The notes under the pieces are model-generated. The model was not told where the DNA came from. It searched no databases and was given only the letters and a program-made list of their open reading frames with translations. Both the position numbers and the translations under genes were made by a program. 64,000 nt of DNA from an uncultured Blastocatellia bacterium (GTDB lineage Bacteria > Acidobacteriota > Blastocatellia > Chloracidobacteriales > Chloracidobacteriaceae), in the NCBI GenBank assembly GCA_937934745.1, contig CALGZC010000022.1, positions 1 to 64,000 of the forward strand, written 5' to 3'. Every line of letters begins with the position of its first letter. The stretch's first letter is position 1. Shown one piece after another: positions 8,347 to 64,000 of the stretch.

Positions 8347-9651
8347 TCATTTCCCTCCTTCCCCGCTTTGGCTTGTCGCCACTTGCTGGCTTTTGACCAC
8401 GAGCTTGACCAGCTCCGCTGAAGGCTGGAGCTGCAGCGGCCGCTCCAGCCAAGGCAGCCCGGCCTCCTTGGCGGCGGCGACGGCTTCGTTGACAAGGTTG
8501 ATGGCGGCTTCGGCATCGAGCGTCAGGTCGCCCTGGACTTCGCCGGGCCTGCCGAGCAGCTCCCACCGCAGCGGCGCGACGGGCCAGAGCAGACAGCGCG
8601 AGCGCAAATCCAGACCGGCGTCGTTCATCAGAATGGCGGCGCAGAGGCCCAGCGCGGCCAAGACCGTCCGCGCGGCGACATCCGCCTGCTCGCTCTGTTG
8701 GCCGTTGACCGGAAAACGCAAGCGCCGCAGGGCGGGCAACGACAGGACGATGGTCTGCTCGGCGTAGTCAAGCGTGACGCCGCCGCCAAGGTATTCGCCG
8801 TCGCGGTCGCGCTTGGAAAGGGTCGGCGGGATGTTGCCGTGGTTGGCTTCCGCCGGCCGGCCGTCTTTGCCAAGCATGACCGACTTGCCATTTTCCTTGA
8901 CAGCGAGCTCTGGGTCGAGCGTCCAGCCGAAATCGTTGTCAGGCGGCGTCCGGTACAGCGTCCCGGCCTTGAGCTGAATGCCGAGCGGGTCAATCCGGCT
9001 GCTTGTTTTGACGCCCGGCACGGCGTTGATGCCGACGATTTCGCCGACCAGCGCGCGCTCGAACTTTGCGCCCAGCCCGCCTTTGACCCCGGTTGAGTCC
9101 CACATCCCGAACAGCAGCGCCGTCGGGCAGAGTTCAAACAGCGGCGTTGCATTGCGGGGCGAAACCTCGCGCAAGCGCCTGCCGTAGGTGGATTCCCTTT
9201 TGGCGTTGGCGCTGCGAAACGGCTTGTTTTCTTCAGTCACGAGACTGTCGCGGAGGATGGCGTCGGCGATGCGGTGTGGCGCCTGGAGCGCGGTGATCCT
9301 GCCGATGGGCTCAAGCAGGCGCTGGTCCTCCGGCAGGCCCTCGCCGGGGAAGTAGGGCGTGAAGTCCACCGCGACGGTCGGCAGGTTCAGCCGGCCGGCA
9401 TCACAGGCTTCCTGGAGGGTTTCCTCCATCCGGTTCGCCTGTGACTGAACGGAATCGAGGAGAACGCACGGCACAGGGGTCGGCGAGCCGGGGAGAAGGC
9501 GTTTTTCAAACGCATACGCGCCGCCTTCGTAGGTCGGCGGAAAAACCTTCGCGCCGGGGCCGCCGGCCGGTTCCAGGCGGACGCGGCAGCGGAAGGCGGC
9601 GGCGTGCTTGACGACGTCCTGAAGTATGCTCAGTGAAATAACGTTTGCCAT
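8347..9651 (-). CDS. csb1: Csb1 (GSU0053 family), Cas7 backbone subunit of type I-G
   Basis: 434 residues starting MANVISLSILQDVVKHAAAFR, then FPPTYEGGAYAFEKR and the segment TVAVDFTPYFPGEG, recognisable as the GSU0053/Csb1 family. It acts as the Cas7-type subunit that polymerises along the crRNA in the interference complex. First gene of the cas operon. The open frame extends upstream to 9858, but the ATG at 9651 has AGGAG 8-9 bp before it and starts exactly where the family starts. The stop overlaps an upstream candidate ATG of csb2 by 4 bp. Confidence 0.93.
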   Translation of the reverse strand: MANVISLSILQDVVKHAAAFRCRVRLEPAGGPGAKVFPPTYEGGAYAFEKRLLPGSPTPVPCVLLDSVQSQANRMEETLQEACDAGRLNLPTVAVDFTPYFPGEGLPEDQRLLEPIGRITALQAPHRIADAILRDSLVTEENKPFRSANAKRESTYGRRLREVSPRNATPLFELCPTALLFGMWDSTGVKGGLGAKFERALVGEIVGINAVPGVKTSSRIDPLGIQLKAGTLYRTPPDNDFGWTLDPELAVKENGKSVMLGKDGRPAEANHGNIPPTLSKRDRDGEYLGGGVTLDYAEQTIVLSLPALRRLRFPVNGQQSEQADVAARTVLAALGLCAAILMNDAGLDLRSRCLLWPVAPLRWELLGRPGEVQGDLTLDAEAAINLVNEAVAAAKEAGLPWLERPLQLQPSAELVKLVVKSQQVATSQSGEGGK

Positions 9652-10044
9652 CTTCAATCTCCTGAGATATTTGACCTTTTGCCCATTCAAGGCAGAAACA
9701 TACACTAGCCGCGCCGAAATCGTGAGTGTGGCAAGCTTGCAGCCTCCCTTGCGTAACTGCTGCAAAGCGGGGCAGCACACGAAACCGCCGGCGTTCTTGC
9801 ACGGAGCGGGGCCCTTGTGATGGCTGTGCAAAGCCCGTCCCTCTGGAAGCTGGCGCAAGAACGTTGTCCGCCGTCCTACCTGCCGGATGTGCTACGGCAA
9901 CGGTGATGTGTCGTTGGTGATGTATCGTTCTGTGGGCAAACGCAGGAGAAAGGCCGCCGTCTGTGAGGAAGGTCAGGGTGGCCTCTGCGGCGCAGGGCCG
10001 GCCGGGGCAGCCGATGCCAGGGAAGCCCGTTACCGGGCAAACCG
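9652..10044 (-). other. Intergenic region upstream of the cas operon
   Basis: 393 bp between cobO and csb1, both on the minus strand. The csb1 frame stays open to 9858 but its extra 69 residues look non-protein-like. The cas promoter should lie here; the segment 9650-9720 is the most A/T-rich, yet I find no pair of hexamers at good spacing. I looked for a cobalamin riboswitch because of the neighbouring cobO and did not find the conserved box. No tRNA or repeat seen. Confidence 0.5.
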
Positions 10045-10638
10045 TTAGAACTCGATGCCAATCTGGGCGACGACACGCCGCGTTGTGAAGGGATGTTTGA
10101 CTTCGCGCATATCCGTCACCAGATCGGCGAATTCGATGATTTCCGGCGGTGCGTCCCGTCCCGTCAAAATGACGTGCATGTGCGCCGGCCGGTTCCGAAG
10201 GGCCTCTATTACTTCTGCCGTCGTCAGCCACCCAAAGTTGAACGCATAGGTAATTTCATCGAGCGCCACGATGTCGTAGTCTGGTGACTGAAGTTTGGTC
10301 AGGCAGACCTCCCAGGCGCGGCGGGCCGTTTGCCGATCCTGCTCCGGGTTGTTGGTGTCCCAGGTGAAGCCATCGCCAAGGGGTAGGATTTCAAAGCCGA
10401 GTTTTTCGGCGCTCTGAATTTCACCGTAGATGCCGAAGCGCGGGTCTTTGGTCGTCTTGATAAATTGCAGCATCACGACCTTGAAGCCGTGGGCGACAGC
10501 GCGCATAAGCGTGCCCAACGCTGCAGTGGTCTTGCCCTTGCCGTGACCGGTGTTCACGATGACAAGTGGTGTCCGTTTACGACGAATGGTGCGCAGGTTG
10601 GCCTCGTGGGCTTCGAGCGAAGATGGTGCAGTGGTCAT
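10045..10638 (-). CDS. cobO: Cob(I)alamin adenosyltransferase (corrinoid adenosyltransferase)
   Basis: 197 residues of the BtuR/CobO/CobP family: P-loop GHGKGKT at 31-37, then VVMLQFIK, the GDGFTWDT motif and [10 protein letters not shown], all family hallmarks. It transfers the adenosyl group of ATP to reduced cobalt of cobalamin or cobinamide, giving the coenzyme form used by mutases and by radical SAM enzymes with B12 domains. The ATG overlaps the stop of the upstream thioesterase gene (ATGA), so the two are translated together, although no shared pathway is obvious. Confidence 0.95.
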
Positions 10639-55612: not shown

Positions 55613-55845
55613 CGCCTGTCATGACGCTGGATGCGCTTGCCATCGGCACTGCCGGGCGGGTTGAACGCGTGCGCGGCAACCGCGCCGTTGCGCAGCGCCT
55701 TCAGGAAATGGGCCTCACCACAGGCGTTGTGGTCAAGATTGTTCGCGTTGCCCCGCTGGGCGATCCCTTGGAAGTTGAAGTACGCGGTTATCGGCTCTCG
55801 TTGCGCAAGGAGGAAGCCGCTGTTGTCGAAGTCTCCGCGCCATGA
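55609..55845 (+). CDS. feoA: FeoA family protein, second copy
   Basis: 78 residues, a minimal FeoA domain: MTLDALAIGTAGRVERVRGNRAVAQRLQEMGLTTGVVVKIVRVAPLGDPLEVEVRGYRLSLRKEEAAVVEV. It retains the typical LxxMGLxxG and GDPLEVxVRGYxLSLRKxEA pattern better than the first copy. Both ends overlap neighbours by ATGA, so the three feo genes are tightly coupled. Confidence 0.93.
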   Translation: MTPVMTLDALAIGTAGRVERVRGNRAVAQRLQEMGLTTGVVVKIVRVAPLGDPLEVEVRGYRLSLRKEEAAVVEVSAP

Positions 55846-58055
55846 GTCGGACGGTGAGTGAAATACCATCCCTGCGCCGTTTGGCGCTTGTCGGCAACCC
55901 TAACTGTGGCAAAACGACGCTGTTCAATGCGCTGACCGGCCTGCGCCAGAAGGTCGGCAACTATCCCGGTGTCACGGTAGAAAAAAAAGAAGGCCGGTTT
56001 ACGGTCGGGGACGTCGAGGTGGTCGTCATTGACCTACCCGGTGTGTACAGCCTTTCTGCTCGGTCACTGGATGAACGAATTACGCGCGATGTCGTGCTCG
56101 GGCGGCAGGCAGGAACCGATCCGCCGGAGGCCATTCTGGCAATTGCCGACGCCAGCAACTTGGAGCGCAACCTATATCTCGTCACCCAAGTGATGGAGTT
56201 GGGGCGGCCTGTCTGGCTGGCGCTCAACATGATGGATCTTGCCGCCGCTAAGGGCTTGACCTTTGACCTGGAGCGGCTTTCGCAGGCGCTGGGCATCCCG
56301 GTCATCCCCATCGTCGCCAGCAAAGGCGTCGGACTTGAGGCGCTGCGCCGCAAGCTGGCCGAGCCACTACCGCCTGTGCCAACCCGTCGCTGGCGCTTGC
56401 CGCAGGTGATCGAAAGCGAGGTTGCTGCACTAGCAGAACGCTTGCGCGCCGGCTCCTGGAGCGACAGTGCAGCGGCTGAAGGCGAAGCCATCCGGCTGTT
56501 GCTCGGGGATGTAGCGGAAGATGATGCACTGCCACCTGCCGAGCTTCAGTCCGCGGTCAATGCCGCCCGCGGGCGCTTGGAGGCGCTGGGCATTGAGTGG
56601 TGGACCGCCGAAGCCGAAGGACGTTACAGCTGGATACACGCTGTGTGTCGGTCGGCGGTCGTCCAGCCGGAGCTGTTTCAGCAGACGGCCAGTGATCGCA
56701 TTGACGCCGTTGTAACGCATCGGCTGTGGGGGCCGCTCCTGTTTGCCGGGCTAATGCTCTTGGTCTTCCAGAGTATTTTCACCTGGGCGCAAGCTCCAAT
56801 GGACGCCATTAGCTGGCTGATGGGCCGGTTAGCCTTGGCGACGCGCGGGGTGCTGTCGCCCGGTGAATTCACAGACCTGATTGTGGACGGTGTTCTTGCC
56901 GGGGTCGGTGCCGTCGTTACTTTTTTACCCCAGATTCTCATCCTGACCTTTTTCATCGCCCTGTTGGAAGACACGGGCTACATGGCGCGGGCGGCATTTA
57001 TTATGGATCGCCTGATGCGCCGGGTGGGATTGAGTGGCAAATCTTTCATCCCACTCCTGAGTTCATTTGCCTGCGCCATTCCGGGGATTACGGCAACACG
57101 CACGATTGAGAATGCCAAGGATCGGCTGGTGACAATTCTCATCGCACCGCTGATGAGCTGTAGTGCGCGCCTGCCGGTTTACGCCCTGATGATCGGCGCC
57201 TTCTTTCCTGCCGACCGACGCCTATGGGGTGTCTTTTCGCTGGCCGGCGTCATGCTGTTTGCTATGTACGGGCTGGGCATTGCCGCTGCCGTCGCCGTAG
57301 CGTGGCTGTTCAAGAAAACATTGATTCGCGGCGCCTCTCCGCCCCTTATCCTGGAACTGCCGCCGTACCGCCTGCCGTCACCACGTACCCTGTTGCTGAC
57401 GATGCTGTCGGCGGCCTGGCAGTTTCTCTACCGCGCCGGGACGGTGATTTTGGCGATTGCCGTTGTACTGTGGTTTCTAGCGACGTATCCGCGCGATGTG
57501 GCGCTGAGCCGCGATTATGCGGCAGAACGCGCAGCCGTCGCAGAAGCCGTGCAACGGGGACAGACACCGGAGGCGGAAGCGTCTGCCTACCTTCAGGCGC
57601 TGGAAAACCTGGAGAAAGCCGAGCGCCGTGAGAAAAGTTACATCGGACGGGCCGGCAAGCTCATTGAACCGCTGATTGCCCCGCTGGGCTTCAACTGGAA
57701 AATCGGCGTCGGTATCATCTCAGCCTTTGCGGCGCGCGAGGTCTTTGTAGGAACGCTGGCCATCATCTACGGTGTCGGCGAGGACGAGGATGCCGCCGGC
57801 AGCCGCGCCCTGTCGGCCGCGTTGCAAGCGGATCGTTACCCCGACGGACGGTCGGTTTTTTCGCCGCTGGTTGCCGTGTCGATCATGGTGTTCTTCGTGC
57901 TGGCGATGCAGTGTATGTCCACGCTGGCTGTCACCCGCCGCGAGACGAATAGCTGGGGCTGGCCGGCGGTGATGTTCGTCTACATGACGCTGTTAGCCTA
58001 CACCGGCAGCTTGATTGTCTATCAGACGGGACGTTGGTTGGGCTTGGGTGGTTAG
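55842..58055 (+). CDS. feoB: Ferrous iron transport protein B
   Basis: 737 residues. The N-terminal G domain has GNPNCGKT at 18-25 (G1), the NYPGVTVEKKEG switch, VVIDLPGVYSL (G3) and LALNMMDLA (G4); a helical insert follows, then the membrane part with Gate motifs FIPLLSSFACAIPGITATRTIENAKDRLVTILIAPLMSCSARLPVY and a second gate with FAAREVFVGTLAIIYG. It imports Fe2+ under low-oxygen conditions. Cysteines in the first gate are conserved. Last gene of the feo operon; convergent with the MscS gene. Confidence 0.96.
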   Translation: MSRTVSEIPSLRRLALVGNPNCGKTTLFNALTGLRQKVGNYPGVTVEKKEGRFTVGDVEVVVIDLPGVYSLSARSLDERITRDVVLGRQAGTDPPEAILAIADASNLERNLYLVTQVMELGRPVWLALNMMDLAAAKGLTFDLERLSQALGIPVIPIVASKGVGLEALRRKLAEPLPPVPTRRWRLPQVIESEVAALAERLRAGSWSDSAAAEGEAIRLLLGDVAEDDALPPAELQSAVNAARGRLEALGIEWWTAEAEGRYSWIHAVCRSAVVQPELFQQTASDRIDAVVTHRLWGPLLFAGLMLLVFQSIFTWAQAPMDAISWLMGRLALATRGVLSPGEFTDLIVDGVLAGVGAVVTFLPQILILTFFIALLEDTGYMARAAFIMDRLMRRVGLSGKSFIPLLSSFACAIPGITATRTIENAKDRLVTILIAPLMSCSARLPVYALMIGAFFPADRRLWGVFSLAGVMLFAMYGLGIAAAVAVAWLFKKTLIRGASPPLILELPPYRLPSPRTLLLTMLSAAWQFLYRAGTVILAIAVVLWFLATYPRDVALSRDYAAERAAVAEAVQRGQTPEAEASAYLQALENLEKAERREKSYIGRAGKLIEPLIAPLGFNWKIGVGIISAFAAREVFVGTLAIIYGVGEDEDAAGSRALSAALQADRYPDGRSVFSPLVAVSIMVFFVLAMQCMSTLAVTRRETNSWGWPAVMFVYMTLLAYTGSLIVYQTGRWLGLGG

Positions 58056-59204: not shown

Positions 59205-60305
59205 TTATTGAACACGTCCCACTCCGGCTGCTGCCGGCGCTTCGAGTCGGCGATACGCCGCATTGCGCTTGCACGGCACAAAGCCGGCTTCCCGAATGAG
59301 GTTGACCAAACGGACTTCATCGGCGCGATACCGGGCCCCGGCGGCCGAGACGACATTTTCCTCAATCATAATGCTGCCCACATCGTTGGCACCGCCGCGC
59401 AGTGCCCGCCGGGCGACTGCAAACCCCTGCGTCAGCCAGGACACCTGTAGGTTGGGGATATTGCGCAGGTAAAGCCGTGCTGCTGCAAACCACCGCAAGT
59501 AAATCTCCGGCGCGATCCGCTCCGGAAACACTTTGCCAATCGGGACGGAATCCGGCTGGAGCGTCCAGGGGATAAAGGCGATGAAGCCGTGTGTCCGCTC
59601 TTGCAGCTCGTATAGCTTGCGCAAGTGTTCCAGCCGGTGCAGGTCGGTTTCGCCCATGCCGTACATCATGGTGGCCGTCGTCGGAATGCCCAGCTCATGA
59701 GCCGTTTCCATAATGGAGAGCCATTCCGCACTGTTACATTCCGTTCGACGGCGCATGCGGATTTCATCGACGAGGATTTCGCCGCCACCACCCGGAATGG
59801 AATCCAGCCCGGCGGCGCGTAGGCGTTCAAGAACCGCGCGGATGGACAGACGGTTGACGCGCGCGAAGTTCAGGATTTCCGGCGGTGAGAAGCAGTGCAG
59901 GTGAATCTGGTACCGCGCTTTGAACTGCCGCAGCAGCTCTTCATACCACTCCAGCTTGAGGTCCGGGTGCAGGCCACCCTGCATGAGAATACCGCTGCCG
60001 CCGAGCGCCAGCGTCTCCTCGACCTTGCGGAAGAGCGTTTCGTAGTCGTGGACGTAGCCTTCCGGATCGCCAGGCTTGCGGTAGAAAGCGCAAAACGTAC
60101 ACACGGACGTGCAGACGTTGGAGTAGTTCACGTTGCGGTCAATGACATAGGTCACAACGTTATCGGGATGCCAGTCCGCCCGCAGCCGATCGGCCCAGAA
60201 CAGCAGTTCCTCCAGTGGCGCGTGATGGATGAGATCGAGCCATTCGGCAGCAGGTGGGCGTTCGCCGTGATAAAGGCGTTCAAGTCGGGTGGAAAAATCA
60301 ACCAT
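59205..60305 (-). CDS. mqnC: Cyclic dehypoxanthinyl futalosine synthase
   Basis: 366 residues, radical SAM enzyme. The cluster cysteines are C65, C69 and C72 (CTSVCTFC) within [72 protein letters not shown] and [12 protein letters not shown] are typical of MqnC rather than MqnE or CofH. It cyclises dehypoxanthine futalosine in the futalosine route to menaquinone. ATG 60305 is favoured over upstream in-frame starts. Other mqn genes are elsewhere. Confidence 0.93.
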
Positions 60306-60529
60306 AACGTCACACATCCAGAGGTTCAACCGCGTATGCTTGACGGGCAAGAAGGAAGCTACATGGCACACAGAGTCGGCGCAATACGACTTAGGCGGCC
60401 GGTGCGGTGACTGCACGCCACAGGATGCCCTTGTCAGGGTGTGTACGTTGGATTACGTTTTGGGCCAATCCCCACGCTCCCTTGCGCAAACCGGACGCCG
60501 CCCACGGTGTGCAGACTGACGAGGGCAGA

Positions 60530-61936
60530 ATGGCAGAACGCTTCGATATGGTGATTATCGGGGCCGGCTCCGGCGGGCTGACGGCTGCTGGGTTCGCTGC
60601 CCAACTCGGCGCGAAGGTCGCACTGGTGGAAAAGCATCGCATCGGCGGAGACTGTACCTGGACAGGCTGCGTGCCGAGCAAGGCCCTGCTCAAAGTTGCC
60701 AAAATTGCGCAGCAGGTGCGGCAGGCGCACCACTACGGCATTCTTGCCGAACCACCACGCACCGACATGGCGCGTGTCCGCGCCTATGTCCGGGGTGTGA
60801 TCAACGAGATTTACGCTCACGAGGCACCGGATGAACTCCGCCGCAACGGGATTGAGGTTATTCTTGCGCCGGGGCGGTTTCTCGACGCCCAGACCATCGC
60901 CGCCGGCGACCGGACGCTGACGGCTAAGTATTTTCTGGTCTGCACGGGCGCGCATCCCGTGCATCCGGCCATCGCCGGACTGGACCAGACGCCGTTTGTC
61001 ACCTACGAAACTGTTTTTGACCTTGACGAGCTGCCGAAGCGCTTGGCGGTGGTCGGCGGTGGGCCTGTCGGCTGCGAAATGGCGCAGGCGTTTCAGCGCC
61101 TTGGCGCGCAGGTGACACTGTTTGCCGAGCGACTGCTTCCAAAGGAAGAGCCAGAAGTTGACCTGACGCTGCGCACCGTCTTCGGTCGTGAAGGGATGCA
61201 ATGCATCCCGGGACGCGCCCGGTCGGTCGAACGGCAAAACGGTGTGATCCGCGTGGAAAGCCACGCCGGTACGGCTGAAGCTGAGGTGCTTTTTGTTGCT
61301 ACCGGACGCCGTCCAAACATCGCCGGACTCGACCTGGAAAAGGCAGGTGTGCAGGCGGACGCGCGTGGTATTCCCGTGGACGCTAATCTGCGGACGAATG
61401 TCAAACATATCTTCGCCGCCGGCGACGTGGTGGGTGGGCATCAGTTCACCCACTTTGCAGGCTGGCAGGCTTTTCTGGCCGTGCGCAACGCCCTGCTGCT
61501 CGGCAGTACGCCAGGGGTGACCGACATTGTGCCATGGGTAACATTCACCGACCCTGAAGTTGCCCACGTTGGCCTGACCGAAGCGGCTGCCCGCGCCAAA
61601 TACGGTGCGGCAGTCAAAGTCCACCACCGGAGTATGCAACACACCGATCGCGCCGTGTGCGACAACGACACGGACGGTTTTCTAAAAGTCATTTCGCACG
61701 GCGACGGCACGTTGCTGGGCGCGACCATGGTTGCGCCGCGCGCCGGCGAAGCGGTGACGGAGTTCACACTGGCACTCAACCACCGCTTGAAGGTGACCGA
61801 CGTGGCGAATGCCATCCACGCTTACCCGACGTATGCAACGGCCGTGCAGCAGCTTGCGGCGAGCGTTGCAGTCGAAAACTTTCTCGGCGGCGCTGCCGGA
61901 AAGCTCATCCAAGGACTGTCAAAGATGATTCGCTAA
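60530..61936 (+). CDS. FAD-dependent pyridine nucleotide-disulfide oxidoreductase, mercuric-reductase-like
   Basis: 468 residues. FAD loop VIIGAGSGGLTAA, redox-active pair C42/C47 (GGDCTWTGCVPSK), NAD(P) loop VVGGGPVGCEMAQ, second FAD motif IFAAGDV and the C-terminal dimer motif HAYPTYATAVQQLA. The active site CTWTGCVPSK is seen in MerA-like and SidA-type reductases; the C-terminal Cys pair that delivers Hg2+ and an N-terminal HMA domain are missing, so true mercuric reductase is not supported. GAGG lies 5 bp before the ATG. It precedes the radical SAM gene by 131 bp on the same strand. Confidence 0.9.
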   Translation: MAERFDMVIIGAGSGGLTAAGFAAQLGAKVALVEKHRIGGDCTWTGCVPSKALLKVAKIAQQVRQAHHYGILAEPPRTDMARVRAYVRGVINEIYAHEAPDELRRNGIEVILAPGRFLDAQTIAAGDRTLTAKYFLVCTGAHPVHPAIAGLDQTPFVTYETVFDLDELPKRLAVVGGGPVGCEMAQAFQRLGAQVTLFAERLLPKEEPEVDLTLRTVFGREGMQCIPGRARSVERQNGVIRVESHAGTAEAEVLFVATGRRPNIAGLDLEKAGVQADARGIPVDANLRTNVKHIFAAGDVVGGHQFTHFAGWQAFLAVRNALLLGSTPGVTDIVPWVTFTDPEVAHVGLTEAAARAKYGAAVKVHHRSMQHTDRAVCDNDTDGFLKVISHGDGTLLGATMVAPRAGEAVTEFTLALNHRLKVTDVANAIHAYPTYATAVQQLAASVAVENFLGGAAGKLIQGLSKMIR

Positions 61937-62067: not shown

Positions 62068-63627
62068 ATGAGCGATTCGGCGACTACCCCTAACGCTGCA
62101 ACGTTTGCAACGAGACCACAACCGCCATTGACCACCGAACCGCCGCGCAAGAAAGACGCAGACTATGTGTTTCTTGAACTCACGCGCAGCATCTGCCCGG
62201 AATGTACTAAGGTCGTGGATGCGCACATCATCGTCCGTGATAACAAGGTGCTGATGCGCAAACGCTGCGACTGTGACCAAGCCAGGGGAAAGCTCTATGA
62301 ATCGCTCATTTACGGTGACGCGCAGGCGTACATTACCAATGTGCGCTACAACAAGCCCGGCACAATACCGCTTCACTACAGTAGCGACATCCTTGCCGGC
62401 TGCCCGCATGATTGCGGGTTGTGTCCCGATCACCAGCAGCATACCTGTCTCGGTATCATTGAGGTCAACAGCGTCTGCAACATGGACTGTCCGCTGTGCT
62501 TTGCCGAGGCGGGGCCTGGCTTCAGCCTTACGCTTGAAGAAGTGCAGTCTATTCTCGACGACTTTGTCCGCGCGGAAGGGCGAGCCGAAGTCGTGCAGTT
62601 TTCCGGCGGCGAGCCGACCATTCATCCGCAGATTCTTGATTTCCTGCGCGAAGCCAAACAGCGTCCGATCAACCTCGTCATGCTCAACACCAACGGCAAG
62701 CGCCTTGCGCGTGACGATGCGTTTCTCGATGAGCTGGCCGAGCTTCAGCCGGCGCTGTACTTCCAATTTGACGGTTTTGATCGCGAGACGTACCGCATCA
62801 TTCGGGGCGAACCGGATATCCTGGAGGAAAAACTCCGCGCCCTCGACCGCCTGGCAGCCAAGGGATTAACGGCGGTGCTGGTGCCGGCCATCGAGCGAGG
62901 CGTCAACGACCACGAGGTGGGCGCCATCGTCAAGTTCGCCATGGAGCATCCGGCCGTGCGCGGCGTGAACTTCCAGCCGGCTTTCCATGCCGGACGCCAC
63001 CTGGCACACGACCCGCTCCAGCGGATGACGATTCCCGACATCGTGACTCTGATCGAGACGCAGACCGACGGACTGTTCTGCAAAAGTGACTTCGTGCCCG
63101 TGCCGTGCTGCTTCCCGACCTGTAACGCCGTGACCTACGCCTTTGTCGAAAACGGTACGGTGACGCCACTGCCGCGCGTAGTCAACGTTTATGACTACCT
63201 AGACTACATCACGAACAAGGTCATGCCGGACTACAGCGCAGAAATCAAGATTGCACTCGAAGGGCTCTGGTCGTCAGCGGCAGCACCAGGCACGCCCAAG
63301 TCCGCCCGTGACCTTCAGATGTCATGTCAGGCGTGCGGCTTCGAGTCACTGAGCATCGGCGATATTGCCGATAGGATGAAGATGGTCATGTTGCAGGATT
63401 TCATGGACCCCTACACGTTCAATCAGAAGAATCTCATGAAATGTTGCAAGGAGTTTCTTCTACCGGGCGGCAAGCAGATTCCTTTTTGCGCCTACAACAC
63501 GATTGGCTACCGACAACAAGCACGCGAGCAGCTCGCGGCGCTGGAGTGGGAACGTAAGCTGGCCCGTAAGGAAGGCAAGCCGTTTCAGGTGCGGCCGATC
63601 ACATTTACTTTCGGAGGGACGCGCTGA
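62068..63627 (+). CDS. Cysteine-rich radical SAM protein, tetraether/membrane-spanning lipid synthase-like (Tes/Mss type)
   Basis: 519 residues. An N-terminal zinc-ribbon-like CPEC (43-46) pairs with CDC (67-69). GCPHDCGLC (112-119) and C127 precede the SAM cluster motif C137, C141, C144 (VCNMDCPLC) and GGEPTIHP. Later cysteines (CCFPTC, CQAC, KCC and FCAY) suggest further iron-sulfur clusters. This layout matches my recollection of archaeal Tes and its bacterial homologues, which join lipid chains carbon to carbon to give membrane-spanning lipids; acidobacteria make iso-diabolic acid lipids of that sort. The function is inferred from layout and unproven. Its stop touches the next ATG (TGATG). 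Confidence 0.8.
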   Translation: MSDSATTPNAATFATRPQPPLTTEPPRKKDADYVFLELTRSICPECTKVVDAHIIVRDNKVLMRKRCDCDQARGKLYESLIYGDAQAYITNVRYNKPGTIPLHYSSDILAGCPHDCGLCPDHQQHTCLGIIEVNSVCNMDCPLCFAEAGPGFSLTLEEVQSILDDFVRAEGRAEVVQFSGGEPTIHPQILDFLREAKQRPINLVMLNTNGKRLARDDAFLDELAELQPALYFQFDGFDRETYRIIRGEPDILEEKLRALDRLAAKGLTAVLVPAIERGVNDHEVGAIVKFAMEHPAVRGVNFQPAFHAGRHLAHDPLQRMTIPDIVTLIETQTDGLFCKSDFVPVPCCFPTCNAVTYAFVENGTVTPLPRVVNVYDYLDYITNKVMPDYSAEIKIALEGLWSSAAAPGTPKSARDLQMSCQACGFESLSIGDIADRMKMVMLQDFMDPYTFNQKNLMKCCKEFLLPGGKQIPFCAYNTIGYRQQAREQLAALEWERKLARKEGKPFQVRPITFTFGGTR

Positions 63628-64000
63628 TGAGCACCGTCATCGGAGAATTCACCACATCGGAAGCGGCCCATCCGCAGGCCGTCAAATCGTGCTGCGCGCA
63701 GTTTTATGAAAGCGATGTCGTCCGGTTTCTCTTTGGCGAGTCATTCCATCCGGGCGGCCTTGCGCTGACGACACGCATGGGCGAAATCCTCGGCTTACAG
63801 CCGGGCATGCGGGTGCTGGATGTCGCCGCCGGGCGTGGAACGAGCGCCCTGCATCTGGCAGAGACCTTCGGCTGCACAATTGTTGGGGTGGACTTCGGTG
63901 CGGAGAACGTCCGACTGGCAACTGCGGCGGCTGCGGAGCGGGGTCTCGGCGACCGCGCACAGTTCGTGACGGGCGATGCCGAGCACTTGCCCTTTGCCGA
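63627..64000 (+). CDS. SAM-dependent class I methyltransferase, truncated by the window edge
   Basis: 124 codons are visible and the gene runs off the window. GGAGGG lies about 8 bp before the ATG, which overlaps the stop of the radical SAM gene by one base. After SCCAQFYESDVVRFLFGESFHPGG, with a Cys-Cys pair, comes SAM motif I VLDVAAGRGTSALHLAE and GVDFGAENVRLA. It resembles ubiquinone/arsenite-type methyltransferases. The paired cysteines could bind a metalloid or thiol, but that is a guess. Coupling suggests it acts on the same substrate as the radical SAM enzyme. Confidence 0.85.
   Translation, partial: MSTVIGEFTTSEAAHPQAVKSCCAQFYESDVVRFLFGESFHPGGLALTTRMGEILGLQPGMRVLDVAAGRGTSALHLAETFGCTIVGVDFGAENVRLATAAAAERGLGDRAQFVTGDAEHLPFA

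Follow-up and report, generated by a model that had tools for sequence, protein, structure and literature searches.

A Tes-fold radical SAM enzyme paired with a cysteine-rich methyltransferase in a Chloracidobacterium-like bacterium has the look of metal handling more than of lipid synthesis

The genes considered here lie at the end of a 64,000-nucleotide stretch of DNA from an uncultured Blastocatellia bacterium (the window; positions 1-64000 of contig C22, CALGZC010000022.1, which is 65692 bases long and belongs to a draft genome of 3.29 Mb). Open reading frames, together with domain and model matches, place there a radical S-adenosylmethionine (SAM) enzyme of the Tes/TrsS superfamily (62068..63627, + strand, 519 amino acids, ATG start) and the 5' part of a class I SAM methyltransferase, also assigned by its cysteine alignment (63627..64000, + strand). 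A sequence-only reading of the window had described the two genes as overlapping by one base, and both the coordinates and the junction agree, the last base of the radical SAM stop codon TGA being the first base of the methyltransferase ATG (TGATG). The contig was also read past 64000, as had been advised there: the full methyltransferase gene, cut by the window end, runs from 63627 to 64454 (275 amino acids) and is followed by a convergent gene, a class I methyltransferase by eye, about 0.4 kb beyond which the contig stops. Upstream of the pair on the same strand, domain and model matches identify a MerA-like FAD/NAD(P) disulfide oxidoreductase (60530..61936, ATG at 60530). The pair looks more like part of a metal-handling module than like a lipid synthase.

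The radical SAM protein begins with a Pfam zinc ribbon (PF23545), as the sequence-only reading had it, followed by the radical SAM domain, and its nearest named relatives are in Chloracidobacterium metagenome-assembled genomes (MAGs; 90-91% identity); the host is Chloracidobacterium-like. Its best NCBIfam models are Tes (304.2 bits against a cut-off of 450) and TrsS (296.8 bits against 490), and because both cut-offs are missed, it is by these models a member of neither family. Among proteins of known structure, the tetraether synthase of Methanocaldococcus (M. jannaschii Tes) alone matches it over the greater part of its length. An AlphaFold2 model of the protein (predicted local distance difference test score, pLDDT, 79.4) superposes on that enzyme (PDB 7tom) with Z 45.6 over 425 residues at a root-mean-square deviation of 3.1, the next family in the comparison being MoaA at Z 19.9. 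The radical SAM motif CX3CX2C is formed by C137, C141 and C144, and in an alignment of 50 radical SAM sequences, the window's included, 18 cysteine columns are invariant in every sequence that reaches them. In the residue numbering of Tes (PMC9433317), C9, C12, C33, C73, C77, C80, H83, C98, C102 and C105 are identical in the window protein, as are C338, C455, C456 and C470, which are presumed ligands of the C-terminal cluster; the rubredoxin-site and N-terminal-site ligands are named in that paper. This accounts for the radical SAM motif and for the cysteines of the rubredoxin site and the N-terminal cluster, and the cysteine set for three [4Fe-4S] clusters is kept, which agrees with the earlier suggestion of a Tes-like build with cysteines enough for more than one iron-sulfur cluster. 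The suggested membership of Tes itself is not supported. Besides the missed cut-off, Tyr459, strictly conserved in the archaeal enzymes (PMC9433317), is absent, being Phe463 in the window protein and Glu, Phe or Ile across the clade; Met439 is replaced by Gln, and His36 (a rubredoxin ligand), Cys225 and Cys438 are not kept. Relative to Tes the protein has the extra cysteines C127, C347, C348, C420 and C423, of which Cys347, Cys348, Cys420 and Cys423 are additions of the clade, invariant in 50/50 sequences.

In arsenite methyltransferases (ArsM), conserved cysteines bind arsenic. The window methyltransferase has C22-C23, C83, C133, C135, C138 and C184, and among 46 aligned sequences Cys22, Cys23, Cys135 and Cys138 occur in all, Cys83, Cys133 and Cys184 in 45, so that its earlier description as a Cys-Cys methyltransferase is borne out. 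The top model is the DVU_1556 family, narrowly missed at 146.3 bits against a cut-off of 155, and the second is ArsM (PRK11873; 101.6 bits, cut-off 263, also missed). Against three annotated ArsM proteins from plasmid records and an ArsM-like protein encoded near the pair of locus L064, Cys22/23 align with the CC of ArsM, Cys135 with the cysteine of its SNC motif and Cys184 with that of a later GC or SC motif, the CC match being the weakest of the three because the N-terminal stretch is poorly conserved. Four conserved cysteines are needed for catalysis in most ArsM (PMC8552651).

The flavoprotein is a MerA homologue in the disulfide-reductase superfamily that reaches 346.5 bits with the MerA model and so misses its cut-off of 454.45. 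It has a CTWTGC (CX4C) redox pair and neither an HMA domain nor a C-terminal Cys-Cys (redox motifs were read in 23 such below-cut-off MerA-like flavoproteins). At least 24/45 genomes have a below-cut-off relative no more than 12 kb away from the radical SAM gene, a lower bound drawn from 40 of the below-cut-off MerA matches; the flavoprotein gene is directly upstream on the same strand in Chloracidobacterium and in loci L053, L063, L068 and L070, and a same-strand run of a major facilitator superfamily (MFS) gene, flavoprotein, radical SAM and methyltransferase genes occurs in L041 and L072. Because such a protein is close to the pair in so many genomes, the window flavoprotein is a probable third member of the module; of the earlier suggestion that it might supply electrons, what finds support is its place in the neighbourhood of the pair.

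When 84,980 genomes were scanned with the window radical SAM protein, 58 loci emerged; 46 hold orthologues (at least 63% identity), from Acidobacteriota, Chloroflexota and several other phyla, and Dictyobacter aurantiacus is a cultured carrier of the pair. Outside that count are two fragments, L087 (79% over 135 residues; its genome also holds L034) and L090 (52% over 62 residues), as well as ten loci at 36-43% identity. In 43/46 loci the sequence extends 300 bases or more beyond the radical SAM gene, and in 42 of these a same-strand methyltransferase gene follows at no more than 1.5 kb, so the pair that the sequence-only reading had picked out is real. The sole testable orthologue that has none is L048 (8034-9512), which sits in the same place as L014 in genome G116; the genome search reports a TAG inside its matched radical SAM stretch. 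Of 199 genomes drawn from the host's phylum, just 5 have a close orthologue: four, counting the host, belong to the host's genus, and the fifth is G116, where the partner methyltransferase is missing. A quick, midpoint-rooted tree of 20 of the 46 orthologue loci, the window protein, more distant relatives and one characterised Tes places the bacterial pairs in a supported clade in which Acidobacteriota, Chloroflexota, Thermomicrobiota, Pseudomonadota, Bacillota, Gemmatimonadota and Eremiobacterota are intermixed, with a Mycolicibacterium plasmid copy just outside. Most of these genomes are MAGs, so that single odd placements may be binning errors. Such a sporadic spread, mixed across phyla, is more in keeping with a horizontally transferred trait for stress or resistance than with a core gene of membrane lipids.

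MerA, MerB, Acr3 and ArsM were sought in the genomes of 45 of the 46 orthologue loci (L055 shares a genome with L042; L048, with no methyltransferase behind its radical SAM gene, is among the 45), one of these scans also taking in four of the ten distant loci. True MerA, over its cut-off, is present in 12/45 of the orthologue-bearing genomes and in 10/199 of the phylum draw, a rough comparison, since at most 7 candidates per genome were scored in the draw against 27 in the 45-genome scan and the phylum rates may be low. In 7 of the 12 MerA-bearing genomes, from Acidobacteriota, Chloroflexota, Pseudomonadota and one Bacillota MAG, it falls inside a 12-kb limit around the radical SAM gene, at distances of 2.1-11.1 kb, where 0.09 would be expected (P ~6e-13, assuming uniform placement and independent genomes). 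Further mercury genes accompany some of the pairs: MerT and MerP over their cut-offs beside the pair of L052, with MerR just under (144.1 against 150.85 bits), and matches to MerT, MerP and MerR in L066 and L074. MerB occurs in 7/45 genomes and in one of them (G231) is about 10 kb from the pair. The arsenic genes behave otherwise. In genomes that carry them, neither Acr3 (0/24) nor model-defined ArsM (0/29) occurs inside that 12-kb limit; arsenic, favoured at first as the substrate of the bacterial clade after the ArsM alignment, is weakened by these controls and has little support there. The one exception is L064, where a larger ArsM-like gene, not reported by model NF008823, stands 5.4 kb from the pair.

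The archaeal relatives carry the same arrangement. Four Methanococcoides loci have a radical SAM relative, 37-38% identical, followed by a methyltransferase gene, with overlap in 3/4, and in the one scanned (L077, 8061-10360) the overlapping partner is a true ArsM (356.9 bits, cut-off 263). On four haloarchaeal plasmids, too, a methyltransferase gene follows the radical SAM relative; the one scanned, from Halorarius, is DVU_1556-like (130 bits, cut-off 155), and the gene just upstream of that pair encodes a low-molecular-weight phosphatase of the type that stands beside arsM in Halorientalis. The haloarchaeal enzyme in the alignment (L109) is without the N-terminal cluster cysteines. A radical enzyme of the Tes/TrsS fold with an ArsM-related methyltransferase is thus a recurring theme. 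Around the haloarchaeal plasmid pairs (L109 3057-9214, L108, L092 and L094) we also observed varying sets of DUF547, redoxin, DUF3179 and dihydrolipoyl-dehydrogenase-like neighbours; the last are only 30-31% identical to the window flavoprotein and are for that reason not counted as the same gene.

Several other neighbours were recorded. A PrdB/GrdB-like protein is encoded near the pair in L061 (10331-10813, PF07355), L041 (10332-10766), L072 (4712-5194) and L075 (8656-9225), directly downstream of the methyltransferase in the first two; of 22 plasmid records for such a neighbour, the 15 listed all belong to D-proline reductase, without a mer context. Matches to bufferin-type MNIO maturases stand near the pair in L052 (5574-7387; the one with family-model support), L054, L072, L066 and, as a fragment, L037, with a partner that by eye is DUF2063-like beside the match in L052, L054 and L072; these genes suggest metal-stress islands. 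Deiodinase-like proteins occur in L091 (6397-7212, on a Mycolicibacterium plasmid, by family model) and L071 (3488-3967, in a Chloroflexi MAG, by eye). In the window itself, a radical SAM protein of the CofH/MqnC type (59208-60329, - strand), which probably belongs to an unrelated pathway, adjoins the flavoprotein gene, and further upstream a gene at 55842-58055 (+ strand) resembles by eye that of FeoB, the ferrous iron transporter.

Our best reading, to which we give a probability of about 0.4, is that the pair and the MerA-like flavoprotein form a mobile, horizontally spread module for a thiophilic, or soft, metal or metalloid, with membrane-lipid synthesis not its main task. The data show the gene pairing, the conserved cysteines, the Tes fold with its cluster cysteines, the nearness of flavoprotein and MerA genes and the mixed distribution; what we infer is the substrate, its chemistry, the sequence of steps and export. 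In such a module, the methyltransferase would hold the element on its ArsM-like cysteine site (C22/C23, C135, C184) and methylate it, or an adduct of it; the Tes-fold enzyme might then make or rearrange a carbon-metal(loid) bond by means of the 5'-deoxyadenosyl radical and its cysteine-rich auxiliary clusters; the flavoprotein could keep the substrate, or its thiol adduct, reduced; and the MFS protein that neighbours the pair in many relatives may export the product. A bolder version, in our view a long shot, has the pair join a metal(loid) to an unactivated alkyl carbon: the Tes-type enzyme, whose known relative generates radicals at the ends of lipid chains, would provide an alkyl radical, and the metal(loid), bound to the ArsM-like partner and methylated there, would trap it. 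Such a reaction would reconcile the placement of the protein on the Tes side of the tree with its metal neighbourhood and, if true, would mean lipid-type organoarsenicals or organomercurials in aerobic soil bacteria, made outside HgcAB and the known ArsM, ArsS and ArsL routes.

A number of observations weigh against the metal(loid) module. MerA is on other contigs in 5/12 of the MerA-bearing genomes, 33/45 of the orthologue-bearing genomes have none over the cut-off, the host genome has none at E<=1e-130, and no MFS gene was found in the stretch read around the host's pair. Transfer of a methyl cation from SAM to Hg(II) is chemically implausible, and, taken with the host's lack of MerA, this means that the mercury signal may be indirect, and the missing Acr3 and ArsM neighbours described above count here as well. 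In the methyltransferase, the alignment of the N-terminal CC crosses the poorly conserved region, and a structure model made from the protein of L033 (88% identical to the window's; pLDDT 91.4) has as its nearest solved folds the natural-product methyltransferases AtmM (Z 29.2) and MitM (Z 28.7); no ArsM is among the 50 Foldseek matches listed, which excludes nothing. The tree, finally, leans toward Tes-like chemistry. A supported set of 29 rows joins the bacterial, Methanococcoides and haloarchaeal pairs with M. jannaschii Tes and leaves out the Lgt-linked paralogues described below, so that the window clade stands nearer to archaeal Tes than the host's own paralogue does; within the set the window protein falls in a clade of its own. 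Long branches are flagged in the tree, among them M. jannaschii Tes, L098, L093 and L032, and as the tree is also a quick one, joins deeper than the clade of bacterial pairs are weak. The phylogeny that the sequence-only reading had called for, with one archaeal Tes as its reference here, thus sets the window protein in the 29-row set with that enzyme and in a separate clade whose deep joins are weak.

Those paralogues bring in the possibility, raised by the sequence-only reading, that the radical SAM enzyme couples lipids in the manner of Tes or Mss and that its partner methyltransferase acts on the same lipid. The fold and the kept cluster cysteines speak for it, as does the place of the clade in the same supported set as M. 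jannaschii Tes, and there is a setting for it, given that iso-diabolic acid, a building block of membrane-spanning lipids, is made by Acidobacteria (PMC13274423) and that bacterial Tes homologues have been proposed as branched-tetraether enzymes (PMC8941075). The missed Tes cut-off and the replaced Tyr459 and Met439 tell the other way, and an orthologue in 5/199 genomes of the phylum is too few for a phylum-wide lipid. Gene neighbourhood adds a further argument. Lgt moves diacylglyceryl groups from phospholipid. On contig C15 the host has another Tes-like radical SAM gene (L009, 7987-9441, - strand), 38% identical to the window's and scoring 320 bits with TrsS, and next to it the gene of an Lgt-like membrane protein with a Pfam LGT domain (9437-10228, - strand). 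An Lgt-like match was found in 18/25 unpaired Tes-like loci, this one included, from Acidobacteriota, Planctomycetota, Omnitrophota, Patescibacteria and a mycobacterial plasmid among others, and in none (0/56) of the paired-set loci. Most of the unpaired loci are only 3-4.5 kb long; many of the paired ones span 17 kb. Some of the 25 share a genus or genome (L009 and L028-L030; L016 and L031; L018 and L032), L010 and L088 were outside the test, and the 56 include L048 and three loci cut by contig ends. By its neighbours the family thus falls into two sets, one linked to Lgt and probably related to lipids, the other linked to the methyltransferase and including the window gene, and the C15 paralogue is a better lipid candidate than the window gene. 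Membrane-spanning lipid synthesis, tried as the lead reading, was set aside on the Tes tests and the Lgt split, with the tree leaning the other way; as a role for the window pair it is disfavoured, and we regard it as unlikely. Of the lipid or metalloid pathway proposed from the sequence alone, the metalloid side has thus gained, through the ArsM-aligned cysteines and the true ArsM of L077, and the lipid side has lost, through the mer neighbours and the Lgt split, with the tree pointing in the opposite direction.

The strongest rival, possible though on balance doubtful, is that the product of the pair is a small molecule, be it a thiol, a selenol or a metal binder: sulfur or another group would be installed by the radical SAM enzyme and capped by the methyltransferase, and the flavoprotein would act as the disulfide reductase of the compound, metals being linked to the system only through buffering by the compound. 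The flavoprotein does belong to the disulfide-reductase superfamily, and thiol-redox genes are recurring companions of the pair: VKOR-like, peroxiredoxin-like and TlpA-like genes (named by eye) recur near it, DsbA/CcdA, glutaredoxin and deiodinase-like genes accompany it on a Mycolicibacterium plasmid, a redoxin or peroxiredoxin adjoins two haloarchaeal pairs, and the bufferin-type MNIO matches in 5 loci, one a fragment, would also suit it. On the other side, no amino-acid ligase or glycosyltransferase family recurs among the clustered neighbours (clustering covered open reading frames of 90 amino acids or more, so that precursor peptides, for example, fall outside it), and the ArsM-like cysteines and the true ArsM partner in Methanococcoides are left unexplained. 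It is also conceivable, if improbable, that the pair is a branch of a system formed by NCBIfam TrsS and a DVU1556-type methyltransferase, probably tied to selenium. Tes and TrsS are the two best models of the radical SAM protein and DVU1556 that of the methyltransferase, the host paralogue and seven scanned relatives score higher on TrsS than on Tes, and a review of 2026 includes TrsS in its table of selenoproteins (PMC13188914). The TrsS cut-off of 490 is, however, reached neither by the window protein nor by the host paralogue or the seven relatives, and the pairing of TrsS with DVU1556 genes is presumed.

If, as the metal(loid) module would have it, a Tes-fold clade of soil Acidobacteriota and Chloroflexota serves metal(loid) handling, homology screens for lipid producers will need a filter, and a partner methyltransferase as opposed to an Lgt-like neighbour could provide it. 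This touches on published work, since Tes matches in bacterial genomes have been mapped in a survey of lipid producers (PMC11868695) and Acidobacteria are among the bacterial Tes homologues proposed as possible branched-tetraether enzymes (PMC8941075, where homologues of Koribacter, Solibacter and Edaphobacter are discussed); the window clade should not be counted among those enzymes without a test. Should the pair make organo-metal(loid) compounds, it would represent a new enzymatic route to a carbon-metal bond and a testable contributor to mercury or arsenic cycling in oxic soils. In the literature on Tes, TrsS, membrane-spanning lipids, mer operons, arsenolipids and DUF3179/DUF547 we found no description of the pair, and where mer operons and radical SAM proteins were sought together, the radical SAM protein matched was NitD, in a proteomics paper.

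Set beside known systems, the radical SAM enzyme is close to Tes/GDGT-MAS (MJ0619, PDB 7tol/7tom), with which it shares the fold of the whole chain, the radical SAM motif, the cysteines of the rubredoxin and cluster regions and His83; unlike Tes, it misses the model cut-off, has Tyr459 and Met439 replaced and His36 not kept, carries extra cysteine pairs, and comes with a partner methyltransferase and different neighbours. Mss, the bacterial membrane-spanning lipid synthase, is described as having the catalytic architecture of Tes (PMC13274423) and is compared here by that description. TrsS (NF045646) and the DVU_1556 methyltransferase (NF045667) are, respectively, the second-best model of the radical SAM protein and the best of the methyltransferase, both cut-offs being missed. 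MerA is homologous to the window flavoprotein and has the same CX4C redox pair, from which the latter departs in its score below 454, its lack of an HMA domain and its lack of a C-terminal Cys-Cys. In the arsinothricin cluster arsQML, the radical SAM enzyme ArsL and ArsM make an organoarsenical that a permease exports (PMC8552651). The window pair differs from it in several respects: ArsL is described with a single three-cysteine cluster motif, unlike the window enzyme, the exporter ArsQ is related to GntP permeases where relatives of the pair have an MFS protein nearby, and the bacterial pairs are without Acr3 or model-defined ArsM genes in their neighbourhood. With its radical SAM enzyme, its ArsM-type methyltransferase and a transporter such as many relatives of the pair also have, arsQML is the closest working model for the layout of the pair.

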